From Bryum argenteum (lineage: Eukaryota; Streptophyta; Bryopsida; Bryales; Bryaceae): 64,000 nucleotides of DNA. The translations under genes and the position numbers were made by a program. Under the pieces are notes generated by a model. That model had not been told where the DNA came from. It saw nothing but the letters and a program-made list of their open reading frames with translations, and did no database searches. The stretch lies in the NCBI GenBank assembly GCA_037043015.1, contig CM073322.1, positions 27,804,364 to 27,868,363 of the forward strand. The letters run 5' to 3'. Of the stretch, positions 3,416 through 26,433 are shown piece by piece (within the stretch, counting starts at the first letter, position 1; each line of letters begins with the position of its first letter).

Positions 3416-3523
3416 TACATGAGACGTTTCTTCACTTCTATCAGTCACCTGATCAGCTTCTGTGTCTCACATTCACCTACTTGTGTGTGTTCCCGTCTTT
3501 CAACTTCAACTTTAGTTGTCGAG

Positions 3524-5164: not shown

Positions 5165-6578
5165 TCTATAAACTCGTGAAGAGAGAGAAATTCGTGGAAG
5201 CAAAAAACTCAGTGATGTCGCAAAACTTGTCTCAAAGTTGAGCAACCAAGTGGTGAGGGTCATTTATCTTTTGTTCCAGGATCATTTATCAACTGGTTCC
5301 AGAAATATAAATTTGCAAGGCTTTTACCCAAATTTCTTTCTTTGGTACCATCCGAGGCAGGACAGCAATGACATCTGGGATACGATTGTTAGGATATGTA
5401 CAACATTCTCAGTGATAAAGTGGAGAAACGAAGCGCCGAACAAAAAATTCTCGCACTTACTGAACTCATGAACACACAAGTATTGATCAATCTGCACTTT
5501 CACACAAGCTTTTCCTAGCTTGCATTTGCACTGATAAGTCTTTGTAATGAGATCTGTGACTTCGCCCTCGTGCAAAAAAAAAAGCAGAGCCCTTGAAACC
5601 ATTTCTGTACATAACAAAACTTCGTGCATAAGAACTCTGACTTGAGAGCAATTTAATGTAGTTCTACACGAACTGTGAGTTTCCGTTGTCCGTTAGATTT
5701 CACATGTTGGCACAGGAAGTTAAAACAGCCCTTAAAGGCGACTTCATGAAAGACACGATTCATCAAGTGAGATCTCATTGCCTTAGGTGCAATATCTAGA
5801 CATAATTTCAAACTTTCATATTTCTGCAAATGTAGTAGTTCATTGGCTCGGCCTATCTTACACCTGTTAAAATCTATCATGCAGGTAGATAAACTGTTAC
5901 TCTAGGGGATCAAAGTAGCTGTGTGCCAGAGTTAGATGAGAATCGTTGTTGTCTCTTTTCCAATTTTTTTTTTTAAGCTTATCATTTGTTAGCATTTCGT
6001 TCTGCACATATATTCCAACTCCTGGATTAATATGCTTTTAATACCTCCATTACCATTGAAAAATTTATAATCTAGGATAGCAATTGGTGCTTGACGCTAT
6101 TGATGGTATTTACAGTAAGTTGGACTTGATGTTGGCAGAGGCAGAAACTAAAGTAAGCTAACTGCTCCTCCATTGAAACTATGTCGCTTGCACCATCGCA
6201 TGTTATTGACACAAATCGAGAATGCTTGCACATTTATGAAACTTTAAACTTGCCGCCACAAGAATGGTGATCAAATCGGCCGCATCCCCAAATAAAACTT
6301 TCATCTGGCTCAAATGGAAAGGGTTGGAGGAGATCAATAAGCAAGCTCGGCAACCTCTCTACTGCGCCAACTCAGAATCCACAAGAGCATTCGTGAACGA
6401 GCACAAAAACTTTTCGTTCTACTGGATTCTGAACGTTGGTCATATGGTAATTAACCACAATCTTACTTTTCTGTACGTTCATGATTGACAGGATATCTAC
6501 TTTGCATTCTCGTGGTACATTAGAGCACTAAAAATGCTTGTATACTAAGATTTTCTCGCAGGTGCTCATTAATAGTCT
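5165..6578 (+). pseudogene. SCPL carboxypeptidase pseudogene, left part (exons 8-14, broken)
   Basis: Plus-strand, 5'-truncated copy of the carboxypeptidase genes at 30.1 and 43.6 kb. Homology starts inside exon 8 (about 5165-5243; AACTCGTGAAGAG, SNQVVR). It continues through exon 9 (about 5405-5490), exon 10 (about 5725-5772), exon 11 (about 5885-5930), exon 12 (about 6118-6153), exon 13 (about 6316-6447; WKGLEEINKQARQPLYC, FYWILNVGHM) and the first part of exon 14 (from about 6561). Exons 1-7, including the nucleophile serine, are absent. Exon 11 carries an in-frame TAG where the intact gene has TAC, and exon 12 has lost about 27 bp. Exon 14 breaks at 6578 and resumes at 26434. Confidence 0.9.
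6575..6578. repeat. Left target-site duplication (GTCT)
   Basis: GTCT immediately before the left terminal inverted repeat, matched by GTCT at 26434-26437 directly after the right one. Removing the element and one GTCT restores the SCPL exon 14 reading AATAGTCT then GTGTGTAGCACAAG, which aligns with GATAGTCCATGTGTGGCACAAC in the intact copy when split at the join. Confidence 0.85.
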
Positions 6579-6602
6579 AACCTCGTATTCGTTATATTGG
6601 GA
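6579..6602 (+). repeat. Left terminal inverted repeat
   Basis: Begins AACCTCGTATTCG and ends TTGGGA. It matches the reverse complement of 26410-26433 at 23 of 24 positions; the single mismatch is six bases from the inner end. Similarity stops abruptly inward. Confidence 0.88.
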
Positions 6603-6912
6603 AATATGCAGGATTTTGGGAGATTGAGAGGGATTTATGAGGCCTAAAAGCTGTACAATTGGCGCGTAAATTGTACAATTTAAATGACTTGATAACCAAA
6701 ATATGATAGGGAGATGCTATAAACGTGAGTTTCGCACATGTATTGAATGCAAGGTGTTGTTGGAAAGTGCAAATCGACACAAAAGCCATAGTATAAGAGG
6801 GGAGTTTGAGAATATTATTGAAATATCCGAACTTTATATATGAGAAATTACTCCAAGAGTAATTAATACATAGTTTATTCATTGTATTCAAAAGTAATTC
6901 AGCTATCACTAC

Positions 6913-7687
6913 CTAAGGCGTTCCACCATATGCGATGATACGAGACTTTATGAACGCACGTTGACGCTGACGTGTCCATCCGTAATCATTATCTTGCATC
7001 ATAGGGCTATCCAGCAGTCGTTGCAACCGTCGTCTTCGATTATCCTCGATGCTTGATTTAGGAAGTGAGTGGCGGCGCGTTTCGGAAAGGCTCCTAGTCG
7101 CTTCTTTTACATCTGTCGAAAAACCAAGAGGGCACTGGGGCTCTGAAGGTCCTTCCTGCACATAATGAATTCAACTCCGTCTTAGATATCAATTCCGCAA
7201 ATTAAGGAGATTACAATCGTGTAACATACCTATTCATGTATCTTGCGCGGACATCGAAGTTAGCTCGACTCGAGCTAAAATAAGCTCTCGTAACCAAAAA
7301 CCATTTTCATAGCACAGATTACAGCGAAATCGGAAACAATGCTTCGAAAGAGAGAAGAAAACTAACCTTTGGTGACAAATCTTGAGTAACGTCCACCTCG
7401 TCATACAACACGCGATTGGTTCGCCCACATCTATTCTCGATCTGTTTAACATTATGACCTACTGAAAGTGACCTAACGGGCGAAGGCGACTTATCCAAGT
7501 CACGTACTTGACAGGTCGCCACGGGACTGTTTACCACTCCATCGTCCACAGCCATGGTGGAGAAATCCATAGTTGACTGAGCCGTTGCAGCTGACTGCAT
7601 TAATAGACCTCTACTCCGGAGTGTTGGCCCTACTCCCTCCCCATTGATAAACGAATCTACCGAAGCACGACAACCCCCCTGCGGAAC
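6913..7687 (-). CDS. Unknown element-borne gene, last two exons (partial)
   Basis: Predicted exons on the minus strand are 7367-7687 and 6913-7155, joined in phase 0 by an AAAG|GTTAGT donor and a GTGCAG acceptor. Together they read about 187 residues to a stop. The 7687 boundary is itself an acceptor (ATAATAG), so a further 5' exon should exist but was not found. The product is hydrophilic, with serine/proline-rich stretches (SPSPVRSLSVG) and a basic C-terminal half (NRRRRLQRLL, WTRQRQRAFIKSR). I recognise no domain. The intron holds one palindrome of the element family (7260-7278), which ties this gene to the same system. It could instead be 3' exons of the phosphatase-like gene upstream. 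Confidence 0.5.
7260..7278. repeat. Single GANTC palindrome in the intron of the unknown gene
   Basis: Arms TTAGCTCGA and their complement around a central C. It lies in the predicted intron 7156-7366 of the minus-strand unknown gene. Confidence 0.85.
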
Positions 7688-7917
7688 CTATTATAAATGA
7701 TTGACACGATAATCGACAGATAAACAGTTGTCAGTTGAGCTCATTCAGAACATACAATATTCAAAATTAGACTCCTATTTACACTTCACTCTGATCTATA
7801 CAGTAAACAAAACTTGTTAATTACAATGTAGGAAAAATGAAACCAGGGTGAAAAAATACAAAACTTAAACAAAACTGGATGTACAGCACTCAGTAGGCAA
7901 GAAGAATAGAATCGTTG

Positions 7918-9013
7918 CTAATCTGACATGGCCCTTAGGATGTCAGCATATATAGAACAAGTTGTTCTATCATCGTAAAACATAGGACGCCCAAAAAGAT
8001 GGGAAGTGCGGTACTCCTTGAGTGATCCTGGGAACTCGTGTAGCTCTATGAGATATGGCAAAATCTCGTCTAGTAAAACGGAGTCCTCTTCAGCCCTATT
8101 GACCTTGGAAGTCCACGAAGGCAGTAAAAGAACATTCTCACTAAGATTTAACATGTGCTTAATCGGACTATCGTCAATAAAGAGAGTATTGGCCTCTGTA
8201 TATAGACCATCATAACTATTAAAAAGGTGGGCAGACATGGTCTTAAGGAAAATATCTTTTTGGTTTCTGGTTCCTTCATGAAGATAGTTCGCCCCCAACA
8301 TTCCGCAGGGCACTCTATCACGATCTTCTTGACCGAGAATTCGTAATGGCTTAATAGGTTTTATCGGACCAAAGAGATAATCACAAATTGCTTGAGTCGT
8401 TGTTGTCATCATAGAACTCCAAACCGTGATAGTGGCGAACGCTGCCAACCCGGAGAGGAAGTCTTTACAACCGGGCCTTACCCACACAAGTTTCTTCCCC
8501 ACCTCAGTTGGCACCGTGGCCGAGTGGACTTGGATGTCACGGTTTCTGGATCCCTTAGCTTCCCAAGTTGGGGAACAAGAACAGAGGATCCCATTGAGGT
8601 CGATGACAACATTTAACCAAGCTTTGCCTGACTCTCTTGGAATAAAACCTATTTCTTCACTAGAATTTTCAGAGACCGTGGCGTTCCTAACCTGGATAGC
8701 AAGCACGTCGCAGCAGGACAACATTACTGAGGTTTCTCTGCGAGAGGTTTAATAAATTCAAAGACAACATCTTATAGTACAAATATTCGATGATCTCTAA
8801 AGATAAGAATGGATTGATGAAAAGTACCTGAATATCGTCATTGCTCATCTCGTCATCATCGTGAAGGCCCATTGATCCTAGCGACTGTTGGGTGCAATCT
8901 ACATCATCACCCAATGTAGGATCATTGCCGAGAAGCGATGCTTCAGTGTAATAGAGAGTGTCCTCGGGAGGATGCGAGTCATGGCGAACAAGATCAACAA
9001 ATACATCTTCCAT
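7918..9013 (-). CDS. FCP1/NIF-type HAD phosphatase-like protein (at least 319 aa)
   Basis: Predicted exons are 8828-9013 and 7918-8691 on the minus strand (ATTCAG|GTACTT donor, GCTATCCAG acceptor, phase 0). The second exon has the FCP1-homology layout. Motif I is VVIDLNGILC, with Asn replacing the second catalytic Asp of DxDxT; this DLNG form is, from memory, common in one plant clade of the family. Motif II is ITVWSSMM. The C-terminal motif is NTLFIDDSPIKHMLN with the double aspartate. Members act on phosphoserine, often of the RNA polymerase II tail, but loss of the second Asp makes activity doubtful. The N-terminal exon is acidic (HDDDEMSNDD). An acidic in-frame stretch runs upstream to a possible acceptor near 9055, so the true 5' end may lie in another exon. 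Confidence 0.75.
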
Positions 9014-9149
9014 GACCGGAGTATCGATATCTTCATGCTCATCCTCTACATCTGTTCAACGCAATACAAGGTCATTGAAATCAAGCAAACACGTGTGGTG
9101 GAAGGAGGAGTGTGAATCTGAAAAGAATGCCTATGTGGCTGATGGGCAA

Positions 9150-9170
9150 TTTAGCTCGAGTCGAGCTAAA
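9150..9170. repeat. Single GANTC palindrome between the phosphatase-like and ParB-like genes
   Basis: Perfect 10-bp arms around a central G. It lies in 9056-9280, either spacer or an undetected 5' intron of the phosphatase-like gene. Confidence 0.88.
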
Positions 9171-9280
9171 ATGAACGTGGTAACGCCTGTATTAATTACA
9201 AAAAAATGTTTGAGAGTTTGTATCAAAAAAAGTGTTCTACCGGTTTTTACAACTCAATAACTATACAGTATACCCATTAT

Positions 9281-12200
9281 CTAAGAAGAAGTGGGACCTG
9301 TGGTATTCTCTTGCACCTCAGCCTCAGAGTCAGTATTCCGCGGAATTGACGTAGGTGGATGCGCTGCTGGCTCGACAATAGCAGTGGCTGGAGGTGCAGT
9401 GTCAGGAAGAGGGCGTTGCCCCCCATGGAAAGTACCTGCATCTAAACTTTGAGTACTAGGCACTGCAATTGCAGAAGGCAGAGGAGGAGGAGGAAGTGCA
9501 GATGGATTTAAGCCACTTAGTGCTCTACTAAACATATCCATCATATCGAGGTGTCTTCTATTTGCCTCTTGTTCGCGCTGAGCGTCACGAGCGCGAAACT
9601 CATCAGCCATTCTCACAATCGCGGCTTGCTCTTCCTCAAGTTTCTTCTGCAGTGAAGAAATCACCGCAGCTTCGGAGAACCTTGACTTCGGCGATTCCTT
9701 GGCCATTGCAGAGCCTTTCCGCTTTCGACTTGCGGAACCCCTGCCACGCGCTGAACCGCTACGCGATTCCGGGGTATTGCGCAGATTGTCGGAGCTGTCC
9801 TGCGGGAGGTTCTGGAAATCGGGCTGCCGGATCCGCGCAGGAGAGGCGTCTACCTCAGCCGACCCTGCTAGGCGCGCACTGCCTTCCGCTTCGTCTTCCC
9901 CGGCGCTAGAGGCAACTTCTTCCACATCATCATCGTCTTCTTCTCCTTCACCGTCATCGCCCTTCATACTATCGTCATCAGCTTCCACCTTAGCTTTCCC
10001 CTTCAAGAGGGCTCTCCCAATGATAGGGTAGGTGTTAGCATCGACAGGATATCCGTTGATGCCGAAGTCATTCGGATCAAGATTAACACCGATCTGATAT
10101 GCCTGGTGTATGTCAGCGGAGTCGTCCTTGTCGGCTATGACGAACGATTCAGAAGCTACCATCTGCAGGACGACGATGAGAAGTCAGACAAAGGAATTTA
10201 GCTCGATTCGAGCTAAACTACATGCTACGAAGGAAATGAACGAGTTCATAACTTAGAAGGAAATTAGAAGTATCAGAGGTAACACTTAGTTTAGCTCGAC
10301 TCGAGCTAAACTGCATGTGCAGAAATCCATGTGCAGGAGGCATGCAACTGATTGAGTTTAGCTCGATTCGAGCTAAACTTCACTCTGAAGAAAGCAATCA
10401 AGGTATGGAATAAATAAGGCTACAAGGACATGGAATGACATAGTTTAGCTCGACTCGAGCTAAACTATATTACGAGCAGAGCACACCGAACTGGATTTCA
10501 ACGATGTCAGGTAAGGGAAGGGTAATGACCCCGTTTAGCTCGAGTCGAGCTAAACTGGGCTGTATCTTACCATGCTTGCTGTAACGGCTTTTGATCCGGA
10601 ATAGACAAGGCAGATAGACTCATTGGGGCCGCAGAAAAGCTTGATGACTTGGAGGTAGAATTCCATTCTCAGCTCGTTGGGGAACATGCTGTACTCCACC
10701 TCATTGTACTTTCGGGGCTTCTCGTACAGAATGTGTTTGGGGGCTGTGTAGATGGATTTTATCTCCCCGCGGATGCACACGGATGTGTGCTTGAGGAAGA
10801 GAAGTCGCACGGGCTCCAGTGCCTGCCTACTCTTCGCGGCAAACCCTCCAAGACGCTCGTTGGCGGCAGGCTCGTAAATGGACTGGATCAACTCGTATTC
10901 CACACCTTCGAAGAAGGGACTGGTCTTGGCGAAGTGCTGTACATGCTCAAGGTCCTTCTCATCCCCGCATATGAACAGCCAGACAGGGACATCCTTGAGA
11001 GCAGGCTTATCTTGTCCTCCGAGAACGTTCATGAAAATCTCAAAGAACGGTTTCTCGATAGTAGACTTCGCCTTTCCGTAAGCTCCAGGAACGAGTCTGA
11101 AGTCGATGATCCCGAAATTGATGTCCTCGCCGTCATTACTCCAGGAAGCTTCTTCCCAGTCATGAAGCTTCATCGGGTTCTCCCTTTGGAAGAACCGAGT
11201 ATGAGCAATTCCAGCAGTAGGTTCGAATTTCTTCCGGACTTCAAGGAATACGCGGAAGAACTCCTTGGCGTATGGCGAGAGAACCTCGCAGCTGCTATTC
11301 CGGTGCATAGTCGCCTTCTGGTTGGCGTAGTATGACTCCGGAACACCCCACTCGAGAAGCACTCGCTTCGACGCTTTCGTGACGTGGTAGTCCTTCTTAA
11401 ATTTCTTCCACGCCTGGACGTCAAGTTCGTCACCCTTAAAAATACCGAGCGTAGGATCGATCTTGTGAAGCTGGAGCTGGGCGATAGCTTTGCGCTTCAA
11501 TCGTTCTACGTAATCCTTCCATACGTAGCAGTCCTCGAGATGAGACTTAGGCTGCTTGAGCACAACCTTCGGGTATTTCAGTTTCCTTGATGGCCCAGAC
11601 TCGTTCAAGATGTGCCTACAGAGCTTCTCGTGGTCCTTCTCGGAGAGGTTGCCGAGGAATTTAAAAAACTCTCGATTGAGAGTTGTATCTTTGTCCGGAA
11701 TAAAGCCCTCCTTGTCCTTGAACTTGGATCCGTCCATGGACTCGGGGTCGACGAGGTCTCCTTGGGCTGCGCAAGTAATCACAAATTCCCAGAGTTTATA
11801 CAGGTTCTCTGGTGCAGTGATGATCTTGATCTCGTTAGTAAGGGTAAGCAATTTCTTGCCGCCCTTCTTGTTTAGTTCCCTTTGATGATTGACAACGTCG
11901 ATCATTGAGAACCTCTCGCTTACAGCCGCGAAGAATTTCTGCAAAATCGAGTACAGGTAATTAGAGTAAGTATTGACGGTGGCTATACAATTTAGCTCGA
12001 ATCGAGCTAAACCAAACTTAAGGGATTCATTGTCACAATAATGCAATTTAAGTTTAGCTCGATTCGAGCTAAACTTTACTGCATCTTCAGTTTAGCTCGA
12101 ATCGAGCTAAACATTTGACACAGTGGATCAGAAATGCTTACATCGTAAGCGATTGCTTGGCTTGCAGCGCGCTTTGGCTTTATTCGTTGCCCTGCCACCC

Positions 12201-15200
12201 CGGTTGCATCGCGTTTTGGTGGAGGACACCCGAACTCAACCCACACTTTCCGAGCAGCAAGGATATTCGTTGCCCACGTTGGCTTAAACTGAGCGAAGTG
12301 ATTCACTCTGTTATAAAAAGCCGAAATTTTGCGCAGCTTGTCCACATCTTTAGTCCAGACTATGTACGCATTCCAAGTCCGGAAGTCCTTCTTGATAGGC
12401 TCGGGGACGGTGTCTTTCTGAATCATCTCCTTCGACGCCGCCACGCTGTGCTGGCCGTTGATGATGTAGAATTTGCAGTCCGTCATATCCCGTTCGTCCT
12501 TGGGCTTGAACTTCAAGTCGGGCATGACGCACAGAGTCTGCTTGTGGGACCTGTCCGGCAAATTGATGAGGTAGTTCAGGAGGCTGGTTTGCCCCCTCTT
12601 CTCGAAGGCTCGGATTGTCCACGACGCTGGTGCTTCCTTCATCTTCATGGTGTCAATCTCCAATTTCCGCTGGGGATTATTTTCGAAGACGAATGCGTCT
12701 TGGCAGTCCGAAAAGAATTTCTGGTAGATGACATTGCAGTTAGTGTAGTCAATGTCTTCTACCTTGTCGACAATCATAGGGATCTCCGAGACGGCATCGT
12801 TGATAGCGTTTGCCAAGTCCTCTTCTGATACAAGCTTGTTGCGCCTCGCGTCATCAGCTTGCCTCCTCGACCGTCTCTTTTGAGGCGATGACAATCCAGG
12901 GGTTCCAGAACTATTTGCCCCTGTGGATGTTACCTTGGGGGTTGATGGCTGGACTCGTGTGGTGGTCCTGCTATCTATGGGACTCCTTGTTCCGGTAAGG
13001 ACTGAACGCTCAAACAGAGGTCGTTGAGCTACTTGTTTGGCTTTCGCTGCAACAGCTGCCTGAATGATGGAATTGACGACATTCCTTAGCTTGAAGGATA
13101 GAGCTTTAGCTTTGAGCGGCCCATCGTTCTTCGACCTCCACTTCCCTTCGAGGATTTCAGCTCTGAGAGTGGACTTGACTTCGTCGAAATGTGATGCCTC
13201 TAAACTCTCGACCATTGCTACAGCATCAAAGGGCGTCGCTACTGTGTTGATGGCAAGGATGAAATTGTATGGGGTCGACCCTGGAGGAGAACAAATGATC
13301 TTGATCACCTCTGGCGACTCGCAATCAAGCTCGGTGATTTTTGTGTTGACATCGATTGTCATATGATCAGCGACAGGCCCCTCGTAGCTTACAGCGACCG
13401 TAAGGAATGACGTATGCGCAGCCCAAAGCACTGTCCAGCTTTTGACCTTTGTTGCGTCCTTGAATTTGTAGCAATCAAGGTTCAAGGTATCATCGCCATC
13501 ATCGTCTTGATCCACCGCTGCCCTTGGCTTGAAGAAGTGGCCGAGCAAGCCCTTCATTCTCTGCTCACTGCATTCAGCAAGAAGTATTTGAGTTTAGTGA
13601 ATGGTTATGAGGTGACCGTAGGAGTTTAGCTCGACTCGAGCTAAACTGACTAGTTATCCACAGTTTATTCGTTATGGTATAAGTTTAGCTCGAGTCGAGC
13701 TAAACTTACTTACAATCGGACCATTGTAGTTAGGGAGTTTTACTTCATCATTTCTAGTTAGCAATATCCAATGAATGTACTTACTATTGTAGGGCCGAAG
13801 TTTAGCTCGAGTCGAGCTAAACTCAGCTTCATATAGGGCGAGTTGGATACCTCAGTTTAGCTCGACTCGAGCTAAACTGAATGATCTCAATAGTCTGGTA
13901 TTGGGATGTTTCGTTTAGCTCGATTCGAGCTAAAGTTTACGGATCAATTATGTTTACATCAGCCCTCTTTTATTTGGTATATTCTTACTTACTTATGGTC
14001 GAAGTTTAGCTCGAATCGAGCTAAACTCAAGGTTCGAGGACTGGACCTTTTATATTACCTCAGTCTTATACGAACGGAAGATCAGACATTCCTAGGGGAT
14101 AAGTTTAGCTCGAATCGAGCTAAACTGAGAAACACATTAGCCGAAGATGATATCTTAGTTTAGCTCGACTCGAGCTAAACTTGATAGATTTTAAAAGTCT
14201 GTACTGTAATTGTTCACTTTAGCTCGAATCGAGCTAAAGTTCAGAGATCCAGGATCTTTTCGCTTCTTTCTGGTATCGCTTCTTTCTTGTATCTTCTTAC
14301 TTACTTGAGGTCTCAGTTTAGCTCGAATCGAGCTAAACTTCAGAGTTTTAGGGCTTCACTATTTTAGGGCCTCACTCTTTTTCTTATGTAAATTCAGACT
14401 TACTTTGAGTCACAGTTTAGCTCGATTCAAGCTAAACTGAGTTTTATATTGGGCGAGATGGATTTCTCAGTTTAGCTCGACTCGAGCTAAACTGGTTATA
14501 TTCTCTTAGTCTGTAAAGGAATTGTTTAATTAGATTAGGTCGATTCGAACAATGCTTTAGTCTGAGGCTTACTGGTGTTTTTAGTTCGTTTCGAATAATT
14601 CTGATATATTCGTGTTCACAGTTTAGCTCGAGTCGAGCTAAACTAAGTTACATACTTGAATGTTGGATGCCTTAGTTTAGCTCGAATCGAGCTAAACTGA
14701 ATAGAATCTTACTGTCTCTTATGTATTCGTTTAGTTTAGCTCGAATCGAGTTAAACTTTGCAGATTAATGATTGGTATGGGTTTAATTAATCTTCATGTT
14801 TGGTTAAGTTTTTAGTTATTGAGTCATAGTTTAGCTCGAGTCGAGCTAAACTGAGTCAGCTAATGGGCGACTTGGATGTTTTTGTTTAGCTCGACTCGAG
14901 CTAAACTGAATATGTTTTTATTTTCTTATTTATTCGTTTAATTTAGCTCGAATCGAGCTAAACTTTACGGTCTAAGGATTCTAAAGACTACATTTTACCT
15001 CTGGTCTATATAGGTTTAGTCTTACTCATTCAGGTTTACAGTTTAGCTCGAGTCGAGCTAAACTAAACGTAGACATACGAGTCCATTAATATCTGTTCAG
15101 TTTAGCTCGACTCGAGCTAAACTGAGTAGAAATCAACAGTCTCTGACGTGGACGTGTAGTTTAGCTCGAATCGAGCTAAACCTCATACTCTAAGGGTACC

Positions 15201-15517
15201 TTTAGTTCTGTAGCTTTTTCTTATTAAATTACATTCTTATCTATAAAGGCCCTCAGTTCAGCTCGAGTCGAGCTAAACTGAGTTAGCCTTTCCGCGTGTT
15301 AGAATCTTTAGTTTAGCTCGACTCGAGCTAAACTGAGGCCCTCTAATTACGTTTTTTTATCTCGTTACCAACCACGTGCATTCTACATACTCTGAAAGCT
15401 TAGTTTAGCTCGACTCGAGCTAAACTTTCTGCTTCTGAGTATCTATTTCTACAAAGTTAGAGGTGTGTTCATGTTTCCGAATGAGCAGGTGTAGCACCTT
15501 TCTCCCATTCCAGCCAT
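9281..15517 (-). CDS. ParB-like box / permuted DNA methyltransferase-like fusion protein (1231 aa, four exons)
   Basis: Predicted coding exons are 15498-15517 (20 nt, start MAGMGE), 12142-13567, 10571-11938 and 9281-10162. All phases agree and the total is 3696 nt with the stop. Residues about 280-400 resemble the ParB N-terminal fold, with FYIINGQHSVAAS (about 373-385) replacing the usual GERR/DGQHR box. Residues about 750-965 look like a beta-order amino-methyltransferase: a motif IV position (GIIDFRLVPGAYG, about 758-770) comes first, and a motif I-like YSGSKAVTAS comes late, split by an intron just after it. The catalytic DPPY is not visible (DFRL instead), so catalysis is doubtful. The tail is acidic, then basic (RGRGSASRKRKG), then coiled coil. 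ParB-methylase fusions are known in phages; a plant intron-containing version is unusual. All three introns contain palindromes. The 5' splice site of the tiny exon (AAAG|GTGCTA) is weak. Confidence 0.72.
10197..10554. repeat. Five GANTC palindromes in intron 3 of the ParB/methyltransferase-like gene
   Basis: Cores begin at 10197 (centre T), 10290 (C), 10357 (T), 10444 (C) and 10534 (G) on the plus strand. Each core is 21 bp, and most are extended by GT/AC or AGT/ACT. The last one overlaps the point where reading through the intron would hit a stop, formed by the TAG inside the palindrome arm itself. Confidence 0.92.
11991..12111. repeat. Three GANTC palindromes in intron 2 of the ParB/methyltransferase-like gene
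   Basis: Cores at 11991 (A), 12053 (T) and 12091 (A). They occupy most of a 203-bp intron bounded by GAT|GTAAGC and TTTTGCAG. Confidence 0.92.
13625..15424. repeat. Array of 24 GANTC palindromes filling intron 1 of the ParB/methyltransferase-like gene
   Basis: Plus-strand core starts and centre bases: 13625C, 13684G, 13801G, 13856C, 13914T, 14005A, 14104A, 14159C, 14218A, 14317A, 14416T, 14471C, 14622G, 14676A, 14735A, 14830G, 14885C, 14942A, 15042G, 15101C, 15160A, 15257G, 15312C, 15404C. A decayed copy lies near 14530. Steps are about 55, 58 and 97 bp, giving triplets that repeat every 205-215 bp, clearest from 14622 on. Spacers are also related; for example, ATAGGGCGAGTTGGAT recurs in altered form before the C-centred copies. 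Unit arms tolerate few changes (14416, 14735 and 15257 have one mismatch each) while spacers vary freely. Confidence 0.95.
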
Positions 15518-17150
15518 TCCTGTGATCTGGAAGGTTCAACTTTCTGATGGTCTTCTTTGGCCTTGTTGTATATCTGCAAAACATACGAACCTACTGTTCA
15601 AAACAGAAGCAATTACAAACTACTAACTTTGCTGCGATTCCAATATCAATTTCTAATCACATACTACGCTGTCATTACAAACTGTTATGTGACTAGAATT
15701 ACTAGAATCTCTGCTGGAAATGCAAACTACGAAGTCTGTTGTCACTGAACTGACAATATCAAAGCATCTCAACCTCATTTCTAATGTTTCATCATTCAAT
15801 AACTTCAAAGAATTCAATCCAGCTTCAATCGTCTGTACATTGTAAAATTCTGTTGCATTGCTGAAGGTATCATAAGCATGTTGCTATGTATTGCACTCTT
15901 AGTAGAAAGGCTATCTTACCGCACAAATCAAACGTGAATGCCGATGCGCTTTCAGCAACGAAACTGAAGACCTTTAGTTATCCCACTTCCTAATCAGCGG
16001 AAATGCAACCTGTACGCAAGAAACAGAAAAATATTGAACCTCAAACTCAAAGAAAAACTATAGTGCATGCACAAATCTGTCCTGCTGCGAATTCTAGGTT
16101 CATAGGAACGATGGAGATGAAATGCAGCTGCATAAAATCCTCAATAACTGGACTCTCTACACTGACCGTGTTCATTTCGAAATCCTGCTTCTCGAGTACA
16201 AATTAGTAAGCTTCTACAGAATGAAACTTTCTGATACATATTAACGAGCTTTTATAAAAAAGAATCTATCTTACAAACACGGCGGTTTGCTTCATACAAT
16301 ACTTGAGGAAATGAATCAATCGTTCTCAGAGTCCTCTAAATACAAATTCAAAACTGTACCTAGCTCAAACAGTTGAAGCTTCCAACCCAGGCTGCGCAAC
16401 TCCGTTACCGACACACAAAGCTCTCGATTCTGCTGACCTAGAAGTGCATTCATTCTGTAAACCGCTGGCCTTTGATTCCATACATCAAGCAAGAACAAAT
16501 GCAAAACCTCTGAAAAGAATTACAAAAGAAACCGCACCTATGAACAACGTACCTACTGAGAACAATGTCGCACCACCAAACACGGCGCTGCAACTCCTCC
16601 TCCGACCCAATCAAGGCTCTGGAGCTCCTCCTCCTCCCCTACAACAGCGCTTCCCTCGAACAAATCTTCTCCTCGCCTTGCGACTCTCCTCGCACCAGCG
16701 TCACTCCTCCCACCGCGACAGTCTTCCAAAAGCAACGCTCACAAAAACGGCAGCGCAAACCCCAAGGAAACCCCAAGCAAACCGCAGCGGAAAACCCAAG
16801 CAAACAGCAGCGCGAAACCCAAGCAAACCCCAGATCCTCGAACAGCCTCTCTCCTCGCCCTGCGAGTCCCCTCGCACCAGCGTGACTCCTTCCACCGCGA
16901 CAGTCTTCCAATTGCGACGCTCCTCCAAAAGCGCCGCTTCTCACGGCAGCGCAAACCCCAAGCAAGCCCCGGATCCTCACACGCAGAACTGCGAGAGGGG
17001 AGCGACACTGAAATTCCTCGAACTCACTACTCCAATCACGAGCTGGAATAAAAAACTACCCTCTATTCTCGCTACTCGCAGGCGCTACGCAAAGTGCACT
17101 AGCGCATAGAGAAAGGATAAAAATGGCGGACAGAAAAGCAACAACGAGGC
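15518..17150. promoter_or_regulatory. Upstream region of the ParB/methyltransferase-like gene
   Basis: Non-coding by my reading. A possible acceptor (GTTTTGCAG) near 15576 on the minus strand suggests a 5' UTR intron before the tiny first coding exon. From 16.44 to 17.1 kb the DNA is distinctly more GC-rich than its surroundings and contains a two-copy repeat. One GCGCGAAA at 16810-16817 fits the E2F consensus. The long proline/serine-rich open frames here run on both strands and look like composition artefacts. Confidence 0.4.
16650..17000. repeat. Two-copy imperfect tandem repeat, period about 181 bp
   Basis: CCTCGCACCAGCGT, then a variable base, then ACTCCT, then ACCGCGACAGTCTTCC occurs at about 16690 and again at about 16870. 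The preceding CCTCGAACA and CTCCTCGCC words repeat at the same offset. Confidence 0.7.
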
Positions 17151-17439
17151 GCTGACATGCAAGAGCAGAAATGCAAAAGCGACAAAAGTGGAGCGAAAAC
17201 GATAGAAGAAAAAACAAAAACCTGAAAGTAAGAGTTGGAGAAAGGGAGGGGGAGGTGAAAGACGGCGGAGGTACATGCATGATTTGTATCCAATCATGAT
17301 GATTACTACCGAGGCCATCATTTTAACTGCCGAGGCCATCATTTTTACTGCCGAGGCTTTCATTACTGCCGAGGTAAAAAAATTTAAAAATTTGATTTCT
17401 TCCATAAAATTTCCCTCCAAGTTTTATTAGTCGTACTTA

Positions 17440-18285
17440 TATTTTCTAATTTGTAAATTTTATTTCATTCTCTTTTTAGATTCATTTTTCTTAGAACCAC
17501 ATTAGAATGCTAATTCTAACACGCTACATTTAATTTAAAGTATAAAAATATAAGTTTCCATTCACTTTTAATAATCATATTTTTTGAAACAACATTAGAA
17601 TGTTTATTCAAACACGCTAAGTTTCATTTTAAGTGTAATCATTTAGGTTTTCCTTCATTATAATTACTCATCTTTTTTCAACCAACATAAGAATGCTAAT
17701 TCCAACACGCTACATTTAATTCAAAGTGGAAAAATATAAGTTTCCATTCACTTTTATTAATCATATTTTTTAAAACAACATGAGAATGCTAATTTGAACA
17801 CGCTAAGTTTAATTTCAAGTGTAATCATATAGGTTTTCCTTCATTATAAATACTCATCTTTTTTCAACCAACATTAGAATGCTAATTCCAACACGCTACA
17901 TTTAATTTAAAGTATAAAAATATAAGTTTCCATTCACTTTTAATAATCATATTTTTTGAAACAACATTAGAATGTTTATTCAAACACGCTAAGTTTCATT
18001 TCAAGTGTAATCATATAGGTTTTCCTTCATTATAATTACTCATCTTTTTTCAACCAACATAAGAATGCTAATTCCAACACGCTACATTTAATTCAAAGTG
18101 TAAAAATATAAGTTTCCATTCACTTTTATTAATCATATTTTTTAAAACAACATTAGAATGCTAATTTAAACACGCTAAGTTTAATTTTAAGTATTATGAT
18201 ATAGGTTTTCATTCACTTTTAGTACTCATATTTTGTAGAGCCACATTAGAATGCTAATTCAAACACGCTCAGTTTAATTCGAATT
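17440..18285 (+). repeat. AT-rich tandem repeat, about 93-bp monomers in 187-bp dimers
   Basis: Two monomer types alternate: one with TTTCCATTCACTTTTA ... ACACGCTAAGTTT, one with TTTTCCTTCATTATAA ... ACACGCTACATTT. Each contains a version of AACATTAGAATGCTAATTC. The dimer restarts at about 17552, 17739, 17926 and 18112. The array lies inside the element between the two divergent genes. Confidence 0.88.
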
Positions 18286-21080
18286 GTATCAATATTGGTG
18301 TTCTATTTTGTATTGTCAAGTTTTTGGAACTAAGTTGATGTTTAATATTGTGTACTCTATTTTTTGTATGTGAAATTTACATTGCGATTCTTGTCACCAT
18401 TTTCTACCAAGTTCATTTTCAAGCAAGAAAAGTTTAGACGCGTCTATTTGCCAAGCACTTCGAGGTGCGGTCAGAAACACCGTGGGGAACCCGTATCCAT
18501 GACGAGCTTCCTCAAGCACCGTGCGCAATTTAGTTACCGCAATTGATTAAGTGGGAGCGGAATTACTTTAACCCTATCGACAAGTGAAGAGGCAGGAGTC
18601 ACACCAAGAATTGGCCCGTGTGTGGCGAATCGAGCACTTGGAGGCTGCTTCCCCCCGCGAAGTTGGTGCTACAATCATTTCATCGAAAGATTAATGTAGG
18701 ATTGATCACCGTGATTCCGCTCCACGCTTGGTTCCTCCATTGAGTCAATCGGGTACTTGCTACTATAGACTGTCGGCTAATGGCACATCAGGTTTTTTAT
18801 GGATATTCTTTAAATAATGCTATAAGAACTAAGTTGAAGTTTAAATTTTAAAGATTTCGTTGTGGTTTAAATTTTAAATTTCGTTATTCTTTGACATGTG
18901 CCTAGTTTTCCCTAGCACAATATTTAATATGTGAAATCATTATGACTTTTTTATTAGTATATCCTATACATACGTAGTATTCTTTAATAAAGATTTAAGT
19001 GTGTAATTTCCAAGATTTGTCCAATCATTTTAATGTACATAAGTATCACTCTTGAATTCAAATCCTCATACATGGTTTATTTTCTAAAGTTTAAAAATCA
19101 CAAGGTACATAAGTATTGCATTCAAATATAATAGGTTTAGTTTCTAACTTTTGTCCATAAGTAATCACTACATATTTCTAAATAATGCCATGTATTCCCA
19201 ATATACCTTTACATTGAAATTACATGTACAAGTATATGATTTATTACAAATATATAATATTTCCTATAATGGTAATTATGCCTATTTAATACATTATTAT
19301 AGGAATACATTATGTATAGTAATGTATAGTACGTTATTTATCATCATTATGAAAATAGTTCAAAATTTAATCATAATTCCAAACGTTATCATTCTTATAG
19401 CATGGTTATAGATAACTACAGTTAGAATGTTATTATCATTTATTACTAATAACTATTTACATTCGTATATAATTTAAACCAAAGAGCTTAGATGAAGAGA
19501 AAGTGCTTAAAATATTGATTTAGAAGAATGAGCACATTTCACATTAAAGGGTGACCATAATACATTAATGTCCGTTATGGATGTAAGGATCTATTTCACT
19601 TAAGATGATTATTTCGTTTCAAGTTCTTTATTTCAAATCTTTGACATAAGGTCACCTATAATTGATCAAATATTTTGGTATATGCTTTGATGTAACATAG
19701 CAAGCTATCCTAACTATTTGCACAGGAATTGATAGATAATTTAAGACTTTCTATCAAAGTTACTTAACTTGGTGCATAAAACCTAGGATAAATAATTAAG
19801 AATAATTATAGATTTGCTCTCGCAAGATGATTAGATATACAAATGCCTAAAATTATGAGTGAAAGCAAACATACCAATTAAAGTGTTCATAATGCTGTAG
19901 ATGTTGTATGTGATGTTTAGCAATCCAAGGTAAGTATTGATGTTTCAGAGTATAGTGTTTAGGATTTCGAGTTTTGGGGTTTAGGATATAGGGATTAGGG
20001 ATTAGGGTTTAGGGTTTAGGGTTTAGGGTTTAGGGTTTAGGGTTTAGGGTTTAGGGTTTAGGGTTTAGAGTTTAGGGTTTAGGGTTGAGGATTCTGGGTT
20101 TACTGTTTAGGGTTAAGGGTTTAGGGTTTATGTTGTGTGCAAAATGGTCCAATTGAGTTATTTTTCCATGGTGTTATACCTTAAGCTAACCATTTTGCTA
20201 AAATTCTTTATGAGGTTTTCAAAATATTCCACGTAGAATACATTATATTCCATACATTCATACCTTGATTTTGATGTTATAATATATGATGCATATCATC
20301 TGTAAGAAAGCAAGTTGGGAGCCTTTGATGAAGTAGCATGTTTATTTGGAGTTTTACCTTTTAATACAAATTTTTATGCACTTAAGTTAATCTTGCGTTG
20401 AGATTGGTACTGAGGTTGTTTCAGTTTGTTGTTTTTGAGAATTCAATACCTCTATGTTTTTGAGGAATCTCTTTCTTATTGACAATGAATCATATATAAA
20501 ACCAATTTTTTTACGAAACACGACTTACTATGAGTAATACTCATATTAAATGTATTCAATATGAGGGACTTTGAAATGCCACAATACGCTTAAGAAACAC
20601 CCAAGTGGAGAAGATGAATAATTACAATCCATTATATACAATATATCCATTCAAGTTGACATGTGAAACATACTATATCTACATGCAATAAAACCCCATG
20701 TAGTGAGATTGATAATGAATCGAATCACATTAAGCTATACACATAATCCTCAATGGCCATAAAAACAATTAAATTACTCGTTTCTCTATTCATTGAATTG
20801 TAAATTTATTTCCTAACTACGATGAAAATGAGTATTACTAACTTAGAAGATTATAACTTTCAAACTTAAATTATTTGAGTACGACTAACTTTTAATTGCA
20901 TGGTCAATAATGGCATGATAACTTGGAAATGCATTCTTTCATTGGAAGCCTACTTCGGCCAATGCGTGTATTTTTACGATTGATCTTGTAGCAGGAATGT
21001 ACAGAATTCGTCGAAGTAGGCAGGAAAGGCGGGTGGATTCCCGCTCGAATTCGCGGATTCTACTTCTATGTAGAAATATA
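18286..21080. other. AT-rich centre of the element
   Basis: Apart from the telomere-like tract at 19.98-20.13 kb, this stretch shows no supported gene. The open frames at 18364 and 19151 have low-complexity AT-driven translations. It separates the two divergent transcription units. Confidence 0.5.
19975..20133 (+). repeat. Interstitial telomere-like TTTAGGG tract
   Basis: About ten consecutive exact TTTAGGG units are flanked by variant units (GATTAGGG, TTTAGAG, GTTGAGG, GTTAAGGG). This is the plant telomere unit with the G-rich strand on top. It lies near the middle of the 19.86-kb element. Confidence 0.95.
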
Positions 21081-21092
21081 GGGAGAAGCAAT

Positions 21093-21179
21093 TTTCCCGC
21101 CGAATCTCACCATCGATTTTCCTAACAAATCGCATTTGTATTTCCCGCCTCATCTCGAGATAAGGTGGAGCGCGGGAAA
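21093..21179. promoter_or_regulatory. Cluster of three E2F-type sites upstream of the DUF7869 gene
   Basis: Exact TTTCCCGC occurs at 21093-21100 and 21141-21148, and its complement GCGGGAAA at 21172-21179, that is 142-228 bp before the predicted ATG at 21321. TTTSSCGC is the plant E2F consensus of S-phase promoters. Three perfect matches in 87 bp of AT-rich DNA are unlikely by chance. S-phase expression is inference. Confidence 0.7.
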
Positions 21180-21320
21180 GGCCAGACGAATCTGAATGAC
21201 CTCTGAGAACGTGGCCATGTTGATTCCTTTTTCCTCATTTTCTGAAGGTGATGCTCCTCCTTCGCGGTTTCGGGCTCCGTCGGCGTTTCAGACTCCAGCA
21301 CGCTGTACGTAGGGATCAAG

Positions 21321-24300
21321 ATGAGCTCCACACAAGCGTCAAGGTAAGACTCACGCACATGGCAGTATAGTGAATTGTGTCTGTGTTATCGTACGTGCTT
21401 CTTGCAATTTACAATTCAATTTCGGCGTCATAAACCCTAAACCCAGAAGATCGTTCCGTATGTGTCGTGGACGCCGTTCCTGTGATGCTTAAGATTTTGT
21501 GTTTCCGATGTAAGTGCAGGCTAGCCTTCGTTTTCATTGCATCCGTCTGGAGTGCAAAACTATTGCTTTCAGGGAATGAAGAAAGCGGTACTCCGAAATA
21601 TGCGCCGTAATTCTCGGGAGGTCATTTAGCCGGAGTCAAGAGAACTAGCAGGACTATCAGAGTGTAGCAATTTAGCTCGATTCGAGCTAAATTGCGGGGC
21701 TTGTACAGTCGAGGAATTTAGCTCGAATCGAGCTAAATTACAGGACTTTGCAAAGTCGAGCGATTTAGCTCGACTCGAGCTAAACTATGACTAACCGTAG
21801 ACATAATAGTTTAGCTCGATTCGAGCTAAACAAAACGTTCGATAGATTTGTTTTAAAATTAACCAGTTTAGCTCGAGTCGAGCTAAACTACGGAGTCCAA
21901 ATGGCGCAAGCTGTGCTTCAGTTTAGCTCGACTCGAGCTAAACTATACGTCTACTTTTGAGAGAATCGACATCCATTCAGTTAAGCTGGACTCGGGCTAA
22001 ACTAGACGCTTGCTTTTGAGAGAATCAAAATTTATTAAGTTTAGCTCGAGTCGAGCTAAACTCAGGCACCCCACTCGCCCAATATGTTACTCAGGTTAGC
22101 TCGACTCGAGCTAAACTGTGACCGTAAGTATGACTAAATTTACCTAAAATGAATATTGAGCTACTGTTAATACTGTAATCCTCAAAGAACAAAGTTTAGC
22201 TCGACTCGAGCTAAACTAAACGATTTCATTACAATCATATGAAATCCAGTAAGTTTAGCTCGAGTCGAGCTAAACTGCTGAATCAAACTCGCCCAGCAGG
22301 TAAGTCAGTTTAGCTCGACTCGAGCTAAACCCTGACCCTAAGTATGTCTGTACTCACATAAAAAGAAGAGTGAGAGAATGTGAATATTCTAATCCTCTAA
22401 CTATGAACATTAGCTTTAATCGACCTACACTAATCAATTTCATTACAATCACTTGGAATCTGGTAAGTTTAACTCGAGTCGAGCTAGACTAGACGTTTGC
22501 CTTTGAGAGGATTAAACTCCTTTCAGTTTAGCTCGAGTCGAGCTAAACTCAGGCACCCCACTAGCTCAATATGTTACTCAGTTTAGCTCGACTCGAGCTA
22601 AACTGTGACCCTAAGTATGTCTGAGTTTACCTAAATTGAAGATTGAGCTAATGTAAATATTGGAATCCTTTAACTATGTAGTTTAGCTTGCTTCGAGCTA
22701 AACTAAACGAATTCATTAGAATTATTTGAAATCTGGTAAGTTCAACTCGAGTCGAGCTAAACTGATAAATCACCCTCGCCCAATCTGCAACTCAGTTTAG
22801 CTCGACTCGAGCTAAACTGTGACCCTAATTAATCCAGAATTTAGCTAAAAAGAAAATAGAGCTGATTTACTCCATTAAATCTTTAGACTGTGAAGTTTAG
22901 CTCGATTCGAGCTAAACTAAATAATTACAGTAGAGGTTCTTGAAATCTGAAACTTAGCATTAGCTCGATTCGAGCTATATTACAGCACCTCGCAGAGTCG
23001 CGCAATTTAGCTCGCTTCGAGTTACATTTGATTACTTCGCAAATACGAGGAATTTAAGCTCGAATCGAGCTATTGTGACTTTAATGTAACTTTCTTATAA
23101 CTTATATCTATGTTCTTGTGCATCTGCAGCATGGGCACCTCATCCGCTGAAGAGGAGTCTGTTGTTCCCCCAGTGAACCCGGATATTCCAGATTTTGAGG
23201 TTGTTCCACCTCGACTCTGGTCGGGCAGAACTGTGGCGTTGCACAACAGCGATGGTCTCAAAATTGCAGAAGGTTTACCTCGGAATTTAAGATCCAATGC
23301 CCTTACTGATTCTTCAGGTCTCCTCGGTGAATCTGTTATTGTAGTGCAAGTTTCAACTTTGTTTGTGCCTGTGGACAATCCTGACGACTGGATTTACTCA
23401 TTCAAGTTGTGGCCCATTGATCGAGTTCTTCTGGACGGTGTTAGTCTTTTGCACCATACGCAGCGGGATGTGTACAACCGTTGGCTTAAAGAACAGGGTC
23501 GGGTCAATGGTAGACGCACTCGTACGTATGACAATTCCAAAAGGAATGTTCCTACTGAAGCACCTCGCAGAGCAAAAAACTTGTTGACACAGCAGTCGAT
23601 CAACGAAGTCGCATCGAATACCTGTTGTAGCCGAAATTGTGTCCAACATTACCCTAGAGACAAGATAAAGGTTCTTAGGTCTCGCATTTATGAAAATACA
23701 ACAGTGCAGTTCAGAAATCACATCAAATTAGATGTTCATCGACAATTCCATACAAACGCTAATCGGCGGAATGTCGTGACACTTGAAGGCATAGACGTAT
23801 GTCCGTTAGCGTGGATGCAAATTATGGGTGTTAGTTCTAGCGTCTTTTATCGCAACGCTTTGAACGCAGCTGCTGGGTTCGAAGCCCAACATCATGGGAA
23901 TACTGGAAAACGAAAGCCCAGGGGTCATACTGTTGTAGCTTCTGCTGTCTTGGGCGCATTACTTGCTAGGCATGCTGACCACATGCCTCACAAGTCTCAT
24001 AGCCTCTCCTCAGGGGAGAAGGTTGTAACGAAGATACTTCCTGCAAGTTTTAAGTGGAAAAATCAGATTCCGCCTATATGTGAACATCTTGCTGAATGCG
24101 GGCTTCCACCAGTTTCAGCTTCAAGCATTAGCAAAATCCGCCGACTTAGCTATCCGGAGTACTACGCGAAGAGGGCAGGAGACAATTTCGCACGGTGCTC
24201 AAAGTGTGATGAGTTTGACTCATTGATGAAGCTGGCCTTACCAGGAAGTCAATCTGCACTTTTATGGTCAAGGAAACTTAGTGCGCACTTGGACTCGGCG

Positions 24301-26010
24301 TTTGCTCATAGGGATTTGTATTACCTCAATCGTTTTAGGTCAAAGACGATGCCTCATGAGGTTCTTACTATTATGCATGACAAGATGGACCACTCAAAGA
24401 CAGCCTCCCCTGCCTTATCCCACAAGGTGAAGAACTTAGATGGTCTCATGAAATTGCCTCTCGCAGTGACAGGCATTTTAGCTCATGGACATGTAGATCA
24501 GCGCTATGCGCATTTTGGATTAGATATTTTCTCACATGATGCAAATTATACTGTGGGGTCATTTGCGAAGCTGCTACGCGATCTGGAGGCTCCGCCGAAA
24601 TCCACCTCCAGACAACTTTTTACAGAGGCATCTTCGCATCCTCTTTACGCAGCTCTTCTTCATGGTTCAGAGATGTGTTTGGATCCACTTGGCCCGATTC
24701 CGGACATTTTGGTTCCACCTAGGCCATTGCCCCCTATATTAAATGTACAAATGGACAATGCAGTTAGTGATAACAAAAATAGGTTTGTCTTCAGTTTCTG
24801 GTCCCTTCTCGTAGCCAAACGGGTATTTCGAGAAGTATATGTTAATTTTATGCTAGTTGGTCACACTCATGACGACATAGATGCATTATTTGGTCGTTGG
24901 AGCATGGCTTTGCATAAGGAGGATTATCCTACTATCCCTCTTCTCATGAAATCTTTCATGAAGCTAGAGTCACTTCCTGTCATTCCTCACCTCGTTCAAG
25001 AGGTTCCTAACTTCAAATCTTTCATTCAAGAGTGGCTGCTGGAGGGTGATGAAGCATTGGTTGGACATACAAAAGCGCATCAGTTCAAGTTCTTCCTCGA
25101 TGCACGTGGATGCCCCGTTATGAAGTACAAAATTCTTTGCCATGACGATGAATGGCTTCCTAGAGGTGATGAGGGGGGCATTAAGTTATGGAAGGAGGAT
25201 TCAGAGGGTAGATCGCTATGGCCTAGGGGGGTTCCACAAGCTATGCGGCCAATGCAGATGCGTCATTTGCCGGAGATTGTGAAAGGAGTTTCAGGATTCG
25301 TTGACCATTGGGAGCGATTATCACGTGAGTCAATCGAATCACGGCGACTGTACGAGCCTCTCTCATACTATTGGAGCAACGTAAAGGATGCTCTTTGTAT
25401 ACCTATGGATACACTAATATCCCAGGAACCTGGTATCTCGTCAACTCTTGAAGAAGCTCCGGAGTTGGAACATGGGTTTTGGCCATCAACTCGTCTCGCA
25501 CATGCTGTAGAAGATGAGTTTACATTGGAGGGGACACTTCGTGAAGAGTACGGCGAAGACGACCACTTTGTAGGTCAAAGACGTGATCGACCAGCTCCGT
25601 CATTCCGAGTTGGACGTGACCTTTACAAGGGATATTTTGTTGCACTACGTCCATGTGGCACAGATGGCCGTCCATTTTGGATAGGGCGTGCTATGTCTGA
25701 TCCAAATTCAAACCCAGACTTACCTAATACCGTAGAAATCCAATTCTTTCGTCCCATATCACGGGATAGGGATGTTCAAAAGTATTATACAGGTTGGGAT
25801 GTAAACAAAAAGCTACGTTGGACGGTGGAGAGAGGCGTCGACGTTTCATCTCAAAGTACGGATGCCATTTTCACAGCATGGAAATCTAGAACAAGGCAAC
25901 CTAGGGGGGACGACGGAATGGGGCAAGATATGACTATTTCAATACCTGAAATTCAAATCAATATCATAAAGGCCTCTTTGGGAGAACTTGCCACATCTTC
26001 AGAAGAGTAG
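21321..26010 (+). CDS. DUF7869-type transposase-like protein (967 aa, two coding exons)
   Basis: Predicted exons are 21321-21343 (23 nt, MSSTQAS) and 23130-26010, joined by CAAG|GTAAGA and CATCTGCAG; the joined frame reads MSSTQASSMGTSSAEEE. The ATG at 23110 also opens the long frame but lies before a strong acceptor, so I prefer the spliced start. In order: a cysteine cluster (TCCSRNC) and CSKC, both zinc-ligand-like; an MHDKMDHSK motif (Asp about 425/429); VQMDNAVSDNKNR (Asp about 550); and VGHTHDDIDALFGR (Asp about 589/590/592). These three acidic motifs match, from memory, the D / LQLDN / GHTHEDID signature of DUF7869 proteins of mosses and oomycetes and suggest an RNase H-like DDE/D nuclease. 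A C-terminal segment (GYFVALRPCG ... FWIGRAM) looks like a small barrel reader domain. The reading frame is intact. The first intron holds the right palindrome array. Confidence 0.82.
21671..23062. repeat. Array of 22 GANTC palindromes filling intron 1 of the DUF7869 gene
   Basis: Core starts and centre bases: 21671T, 21717A, 21764C, 21810T, 21867G, 21922C, 21981C (degenerate), 22040G, 22095C, 22195C, 22254G, 22309C, 22468G (degenerate), 22527G, 22582C, 22682C (degenerate), 22741G (degenerate), 22796C, 22896T, 22960T, 23006C (degenerate), 23047A. A decayed copy lies near 22430. From 21922 the steps are 59, 59, 55, then repeated 100, 59, 55, a 214-bp period. Spacers such as CACCCCACTCGCCCAATATG and TGTGACCCTAAGTATGTCTG recur. 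The first four copies have a shorter step of 46-47 bp. Confidence 0.95.
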
Positions 26011-26409
26011 TATTCCATCAATGATGCTCTACGCATCCGATAGCCGACTCTTAGACCATTTAGTTTGTATTCTAATATATAGTCGTAAGTGAATTACATA
26101 TTATACTGTATTTTGTTCATTTCCTACTATATATTCAAATTATGGGTTGATGCAATCCAATTCTTCATATTACGATGTTGATCCAATCTACGACAAGTGC
26201 TTATCATATTGCTAACACAAGGGTCTCAATCACTCTGTTTTATTTTCTTCATCTCATGACATGCTTTCCACATAATGTTTTGATCTAAGTGGACCTCCCA
26301 ATTTAATGGAAATTTTATTTTAATAATACATATGCTTACGGTGTGGCCAATAACTGAGTGAATTTTAGCTCGATTGAACTCCATGTATTAATTTGGGAGA
26401 TTGTTCTTC
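26011..26409. other. 3' UTR of the DUF7869 gene and right subterminal region
   Basis: AT-rich tail. A single palindrome arm with its centre (TTTAGCTCGAT, 26364-26374) remains 36 bp inside the right terminal repeat, the only trace of the palindrome outside introns on this side. No other feature seen. Confidence 0.6.
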
Positions 26410-26433
26410 TCCCATTATAACGAATACGAGGTT
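26410..26433 (-). repeat. Right terminal inverted repeat
   Basis: Ends ACGAATACGAGGTT on the plus strand. Its reverse complement matches 6579-6602 at 23 of 24 bases. Confidence 0.88.

Follow-up and report, generated by a model that had tools for sequence, protein, structure and literature searches.

Intronic palindrome arrays of a large DNA transposon in the moss Bryum argenteum as possible binding sites of an element-encoded protein

Why should 56 near-perfect copies of one palindrome lie together in a moss genome, all of them in non-coding DNA? The question is raised by a window of 64,000 nucleotides (the whole stretch analysed) of Bryum argenteum, positions 27,804,364 to 27,868,363 of CM073322.1, which lies on contig C2 of the 258.8-Mb, 25-contig genome. 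Sites were called at up to four mismatches to TTTAGCTCGANTCGAGCTAAA, and their consensus is TTTAGCTCGA-N-TCGAGCTAAA. They span 7259 to 23074, the rest of the window containing none; 49 of the 56 possess the exact inner 15-mer, and GANTC is found in most. The centre base is A in 12, C in 19, G in 14 and T in 11 cases, which bears out a sequence-only reading of the window that had reported about 56 such palindromes with all four bases at the centre. All 56 are inside one insertion, and the reading which we favour, with about even confidence, is that a large moss DNA transposon carries them as DNA-binding sites, to which an element-encoded protein would attach in an anti-silencing or gene-regulating role.

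The insertion is defined by its ends, here given with the target-site duplication (TSD):

6579..26433, no strand: whole DNA transposon of 19,855 bp, with 24-bp inverted ends and TSD GTCT
6579..6602, plus strand: left terminal inverted repeat AACCTCGTATTCGTTATATTGGGA, preceded by TSD GTCT (6575-6578)
26410..26433, minus strand: right terminal inverted repeat, the same as the left in 23 of 24 bases, then TSD GTCT (26434-26437)

The 24-bp inverted repeat of the element reads AACCTCGTATTCGTTATA-T/A-TGGGA. This end sequence has 274 matches in the genome at up to three mismatches (control, 0), and there are 21 exact end pairs, 18 of which are spaced 18.9-20.4 kb and the other three 29.1, 34.2 and 54.2 kb. 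Eight of ten sampled end pairs are flanked by identical 4-bp target duplications, the two without a matching TSD showing CAGT/AGTA and AAAA/AAGA. Copies include one at C1:201626-220197 (TSD CTAT) and a diverged 13.7-kb family member at C1:6310645-6324386 (TSD ATTT). Two ends, L017:525 and L019:7399 (L numbers designate individual loci), have unlike flanks that do not match each other, and they may not belong together. With inverted ends, a fixed 4-bp TSD and many dispersed copies of similar length, the element is a terminal inverted repeat DNA transposon.

Within it, genes and palindromes are arranged as follows:

7259..7279, minus strand: one palindrome close to the 3' end of the phosphatase gene, with an exon on either side (AG 7156)
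7918..9051, minus strand: frames of the NIF-type (CTD) phosphatase gene (PF03031, 6e-14, frame 7918-8748)
9150..9170, minus strand: one palindrome after the methyltransferase-like frame has stopped (9281) and before an exon of the phosphatase gene (AG 9052)
10197..10554, minus strand: five palindromes in intron 3 of the ParB-like/methyltransferase-like gene (GT 10570, AG 10163)
10571..11938, minus strand: exon with a predicted adenine-methyltransferase fold (structure model), motif IV degenerate (DFR)
11991..12111, minus strand: three palindromes in intron 2 of the ParB-like/methyltransferase-like gene (GT 12141, AG 11939)
12142..13593, minus strand: main exon, ParB/DGQHR-like in its INGQHS motif only
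13625..15424, minus strand: 24 palindromes in intron 1 of the ParB-like/methyltransferase-like gene (GT 15497; acceptor near 13580, by eye)
15498..21343, no strand: central region of 5.8 kb between the two divergent genes, without palindromes
21671..23074, plus strand: 22 palindromes in the 5' intron of the DUF7869 gene (GT 21344, AG 23129)
23131..26010, plus strand: DUF7869 coding exon, putative DDD transposase (PF25273, 2.1e-41)

By interval the palindromes number 24 (13.6-15.5 kb), 3 (11.94-12.14 kb), 5 (10.16-10.57 kb) and 22 (21.34-23.13 kb), plus the single sites at 9150 and 7259. These are the numbers of the earlier reading, which had left 9150 unassigned and had put 7259 in a gene of no known identity; both can now be placed, the former before a phosphatase-gene exon and the latter between two exons of that gene. 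No palindrome is centred in an exon (0/56). Fifty-five are wholly within the rough intron limits, and the remaining one, at 12091, is intronic too given the GT donor at 12141. The introns are predicted from the sequence, with support from GT..AG signals seen again at the corresponding positions of other element copies; exon 1 of the ParB-like/methyltransferase-like gene, ATGGCAGACAG followed by GTAA, is common to L010 and L011. The frame 8687-9055 is joined to the phosphatase gene by homology to L010, which also has a palindrome at the place matching 9150, and none in the intron homologous to the 7259 site.

The same positions are occupied in other copies. Introns 2 and 3 bear palindromes in L010, L011, L013, L017 and L021, the methyltransferase-like exons of which are 33-57% identical to that of the window, so that homologous introns are occupied even at about 33% protein identity; the 5' position at DUF7869 is occupied in L009, L012, L019, L028 and L029. 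Three other elements (L009/L010, L011/L012 and L014) have the same plan, each of the two divergent genes having an array at its 5' end and the centre being free of palindromes over 6-8 kb. As a separate observation, the central region in the window contains some 25 copies of the telomere-type heptamer TAGGGTT (19953-20130), and telomere-type heptamer repeats also occur in the central regions of L009 (3965-3992) and L011 (9810-9830).

In the whole genome the palindrome has 12,708 matches at up to three mismatches and the reversed pattern only 5, which excludes a chance origin. The sequence-only reading had named, as the outcome that would speak against it, a motif common genome-wide with no link to these genes. 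Common it is, and the link to a gene set, that of a transposon, stands: related element DNA is present at 37 of the 38 palindrome-bearing loci examined, which are not a random sample. A first set of 20 loci comprised 18 chosen for clusters, all carrying palindromes, and two flanks of the window with none; of the 18, 14 have matches to element proteins, and L014, L016, L022 and L027 match DNA of the protein-matching loci. Selection by a rare variant of the arm (35 sites) gave the second set, from which 20 loci were read. Nineteen of these are element DNA with the palindromes masked; this set is likewise not random, since 18 of the 19 are around intron 2 of the ParB-like gene. The twentieth locus, L072, differs: there, two palindromes are situated close to the ends of a small foldback element. 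This element, of about 340 bp (927-1223 of the locus, C5:18938669-18941069), possesses ATTTTGAGAGATT-type ends with a palindrome at each side, and no link between it and the big element was found.

Conservation was compared in 244 exon-anchored alignments with up to four palindromes each, many of which share copies and are not independent, leaving out the palindromes that drew the second locus set. In identity bands of <80, 80-85, 85-90 and 90+%, arm identity was 92.1, 93.8, 94.6 and 96.8%, coding-exon identity 81.9, 84.7, 89.7 and 95.1%, and spacer identity 70.4, 74.0, 80.8 and 91.4%. The palindrome arms are thus better conserved than either coding exons or spacers, and the earlier claim that arms are kept while spacers drift, through selection or homogenisation, holds with arms at 92-97% and spacers at 70-91%. 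Across 284 distinct sites there is hardly any variation at the inner ten positions.

These figures bear on whether the palindromes have a function at all. Functionless self-propagating repeats could multiply through tandem duplication, template switching and conversion, being kept only where coding sequence does not purge them; we consider this rather improbable. The arrays show many periods, as such a process would give, and the L072 pair flanks a small foldback element outside the big one. The centre base also points this way, with 25 of 28 differences between aligned copies being G<->C flips compared with 10-13% of all substitutions, although the same sites recur in several of the pairs. 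By contrast, introns holding just one or two copies have them in distant elements too, the arms exceed the exons in conservation, the 6-8-kb centres stay free in three further copies, and the same site is present in another sample (L029, below). On rampant inversion of the palindrome the copies point both ways: G<->C flips are in excess in older copies, yet complement flips are few in young ones (counted by eye).

If the palindromes are functional, they might act as DNA or as RNA. In the latter case they would form hairpins in the pre-mRNA, aiding splicing or binding an element-encoded RNA-binding regulator. All 56 sites of the window are in introns or between exons and none is in the central region, as expected of this explanation, and the outer positions covary: among the 284 distinct sites, ±11 are paired in 86% (46.5% expected) and ±12 in 76% (38.5% expected). 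Genome-wide, ±11 is G..C in 2885 sites, A..T in 1873, mismatched (G..T or A..C) in 651 and C..G in 35, these representing far fewer events than sites, as many sites are related by duplication. The resemblance of the methyltransferase-like fold to METTL3 as well as to DNA enzymes would also suit an RNA target.

An RNA hairpin under selection is expected to favour G·U. In an orientation test on 317 distinct oriented sites from 382 (54 having been dropped with no element protein within 4 kb), one-sided inner changes gave 66 G·U, 66 A·C and 125 other mismatches in the sense RNA. The lack of a G·U excess over A·C speaks against a hairpin, with the proviso that decay in dead copies would blur or mimic such equality; C to T or G to A at the two CpGs accounts for many of the one-sided changes, the pattern that methylated copies in decay would show. 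Two-sided inner changes kept pairing in 8 cases and broke it in 3, the 8 standing against 257 one-sided changes, and the inner 10 bp are more nearly fixed in sequence than pairing alone would require. Ten of the 382 sites fell inside protein alignments, all at introns 2 or 3 or the like, and were counted as intronic since the open frames of homologues run on into the intron. Taken together, and judged from the sequences, a DNA-binding site fits better than an RNA hairpin, which we regard as unlikely; the earlier reading had left the two side by side, and its first option is the one that gains.

Which element protein might bind? On the minus strand the INGQHS exon is followed by the methyltransferase-fold exon and then the NIF-type phosphatase, DUF7869 being on the other strand. 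We take the INGQHS motif to be ParB/DGQHR-like. Its residues N379, Q381 and H382 are invariant in 27 sequences, while the exon has no ParB-like family match in Pfam or NCBIfam and no PDB sequence match. For the methyltransferase-like exon AlphaFold gave a model with a mean predicted local distance difference test score (pLDDT) of 82.8, and its best Foldseek matches are MTA1, METTL3 and M.BceJIV (best E 1.5e-3, prob 1.00; none <1e-3). In the "ParB/methyltransferase-like gene" of the sequence-only reading, therefore, the second half of the name is upheld by fold and the first remains a motif label.

An active N6-adenine methyltransferase has the catalytic motif [DNS]PP[YFW]. Where active enzymes have DPP(Y/F/W), motif IV of the element protein is DFR in 23 of 28 aligned sequences and DLR in the other 5, rendering catalysis doubtful, and FxGxG is mostly FxGxK. 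That the enzyme would methylate the central GANTC is suggested by the presence of this fold in the same element and of GANTC in most sites. With the catalytic motif so altered, and a conserved unit of 21-25 bp that is far longer than GANTC, we think it very improbable. Besides MTA1, METTL3 and M.BceJIV, MboIIA resembles the product of 10571-11938 in fold, with no match under E 1e-3; the moss protein differs from all four in its lost catalytic motif and in being the product of the same gene as the ParB-like part.

DUF7869 has D417, D542 and D582/D584 invariant in 28 sequences. Its model is weak (pLDDT 65.4) and has a b-b-b-a-b-a-b-a series in RNase H order, with these acidic residues at the ends of the first and fourth strands and the start of the last helix; no Foldseek structural match was found at E<=1e-3. 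On this model it is a putative DDD transposase. Its named relatives belong to Ceratodon purpureus, at up to 64% identity, and the methyltransferase-like exon has a match in a protein of Physcomitrium patens (45% identity over 61%), as befits moss nuclear DNA.

The palindromes could then serve transposition, replication or partition, either as enhancer-like sites bound by DUF7869 or as parS-like centromere sites bound by the ParB-like protein. Conservation across distant elements is as expected of a transposase site, and palindrome arrays beside a ParB-like motif recall parS and sopC. The sites are not subterminal at both ends, the first being 680 bp from the left end and the last 3.36 kb from the right, and no ParB-type helix-turn-helix was listed in the family searches of the main frames. 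We judge this explanation quite improbable, and its version as subterminal transposase sites was rejected as the principal reading on account of the palindrome-free 3.36 kb at the right end.

We return to binding by an element-encoded protein. A symmetric, homodimeric protein would bind the 10-bp half-sites around the free centre base. The best candidate is the protein that combines the ParB-like part with the catalytically degenerate methyltransferase fold, and 32 of the 56 sites lie in its gene. Spread over both transcription units, the palindromes would gather this protein on the element and, in trans, on relatives, where it would keep the element unsilenced or regulate its genes and so permit expression of the DUF7869 transposase. 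The arrays would grow by tandem duplication, and introns would be where sites can accumulate in transcribed DNA without harm to proteins. DNA binding by an element protein is, we infer, most likely, and anti-silencing its most likely purpose.

Several points weigh against this. Sites are missing from the central region, the expected place of promoters, and from the last 3.36 kb at the right end; the Arabidopsis anti-silencing protein VANC21 is by contrast found also at intergenic and terminal regions of VANDAL21 (PMC5735166). A fixed binding site does not call for compensatory change at the outer positions (±11, ±12). VANC targets diverge rapidly, and the moss palindrome has hardly changed. 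The name ParB comes from a motif match only, and some palindromes (L072) are outside the element. Calling palindromes at up to four mismatches in at least one copy favours conserved sites and helps the arms somewhat, and homogenisation within arrays could raise their identity. The intron-only placement and the covariation of the outer arms are the facts least well explained.

Among known systems, ParB-parS and SopB-sopC are alike in having palindromic site arrays adjoining a gene with a ParB-like motif; unlike them, the moss case is a eukaryotic chromosomal transposon with intronic sites, and only INGQHS resembles ParB/DGQHR. The nearest parallel is the anti-silencing VANDAL/VANC system of Arabidopsis (PMC5735166, PMC10398659): a multi-gene DNA transposon with a short motif, often tandem in introns and other non-coding DNA, the repeats of which differ between copies by gain and loss. 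The motif YAGTATTAY is what VANC21 binds in non-coding VANDAL21 DNA, including intronic tandem arrays, with consequent loss of methylation, and VANC proteins carry DUF1985/DUF287, their targets varying considerably between related elements (PMC5735166). Neither domain appeared in Pfam scans of the main frames (E up to 0.1, and up to 5), scans that covered the frames other than the small exon frames 6909-7093, 7319-7687 and 8687-9055. The VANC21 motif is of nine bases and non-palindromic, whereas the moss site is a nearly invariant palindrome of 21-25 bp; the moss element has a ParB-like/degenerate methyltransferase protein, DUF7869 and 4-bp TSDs, and belongs to a different superfamily. Binding and hypomethylation have been shown for VANC21 (PMC5735166), while the moss side is read from sequence. 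TET/JBP fungal transposons (PMC12730594) similarly combine a transposase with a gene from the DNA-methylation world; there it is a dioxygenase, as opposed to a methyltransferase fold with palindrome arrays, and the main text of that paper mentions neither ParB nor moss.

The sequence-only reading knew of no described transposon with this arrangement. Intronic DNA-motif arrays in transposons are already known from VANDAL elements (PMC5735166), from which the moss case differs in its symmetric, far better conserved site in an unrelated element. DUF7869 is not named in the literature searched; among the matches listed for the half-site words, all look unrelated by title and start of abstract, and among those listed for moss, palindrome and intron and for bryophyte transposons nothing concerns the element.

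The palindrome also occurs in other samples. L029, a contig filed under a cyanobacterial metagenome-assembled genome, encodes DUF7869 at 66% identity over 964 aligned residues with palindromes just 5' of it, and is probably moss DNA from a separate sample, a plant-like contamination of that assembly. Exact palindromes in prokaryote species genomes gave three matches, namely L029 and two single Rhizobium sites; the latter (L030 914 and L031 567) have near-identical flanks and no match to an element protein. The palindrome encodes the peptides SSxRA, ARxEL and QL[DE]SS, which are present in 17 of 55 ParB-like homologues (shuffled 0.2), 11 of 67 methyltransferase-like homologues (shuffled 0.6) and 1 of 59 DUF7869 homologues (shuffled 0.45), mostly close to the frame end; it seems that more than one moss has the same palindrome. 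A virus origin was considered and rejected: 50 (DUF7869) and 46 (methyltransferase-like) viral peptide-pattern stretches were noted and none confirmed, and the exact palindrome was not found in viral contigs.

DUF7869 gave at least 49 match rows in the genome, from the best 48 of 2574 first-look candidates. Contig C1 (44.1 Mb, 17% of the genome) holds 37 of these 49, counting the best-scored candidates only, and may be a sex chromosome or otherwise transposon-rich. Around the insertion, 5200-6535 and 30191-31616 are inverted, exon-like blocks with 73% identity, seemingly paralogous host sequences; this inverted repeat (5.2-6.5 / 30.2-31.6 kb) was considered as the transposon ends and rejected on its exon-like character. 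The window also contains two cupin (germin-like) genes (100-4180) and adjoining U5 and U1 spliceosomal RNA genes on the plus strand (54099-54669).

A more specific proposal may be put forward tentatively: that mosses have an independently evolved, sequence-specific anti-silencing system in which a transposon's ParB-like domain with a dead adenine methyltransferase has become a DNA-binding protein and coats parS-like intronic palindrome arrays, at a nearly invariant site common to elements of about 33% protein identity and, it seems, to more than one moss. If this is true, defence by a self-made DNA-binding protein and its motif arrays would have arisen more than once, in VANDALs and in mosses, and the element would offer a compact protein-site pair for silencing studies in a land-plant lineage that diverged early. 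There would also be a likely role, as a transposase, for DUF7869, a domain of unknown function.

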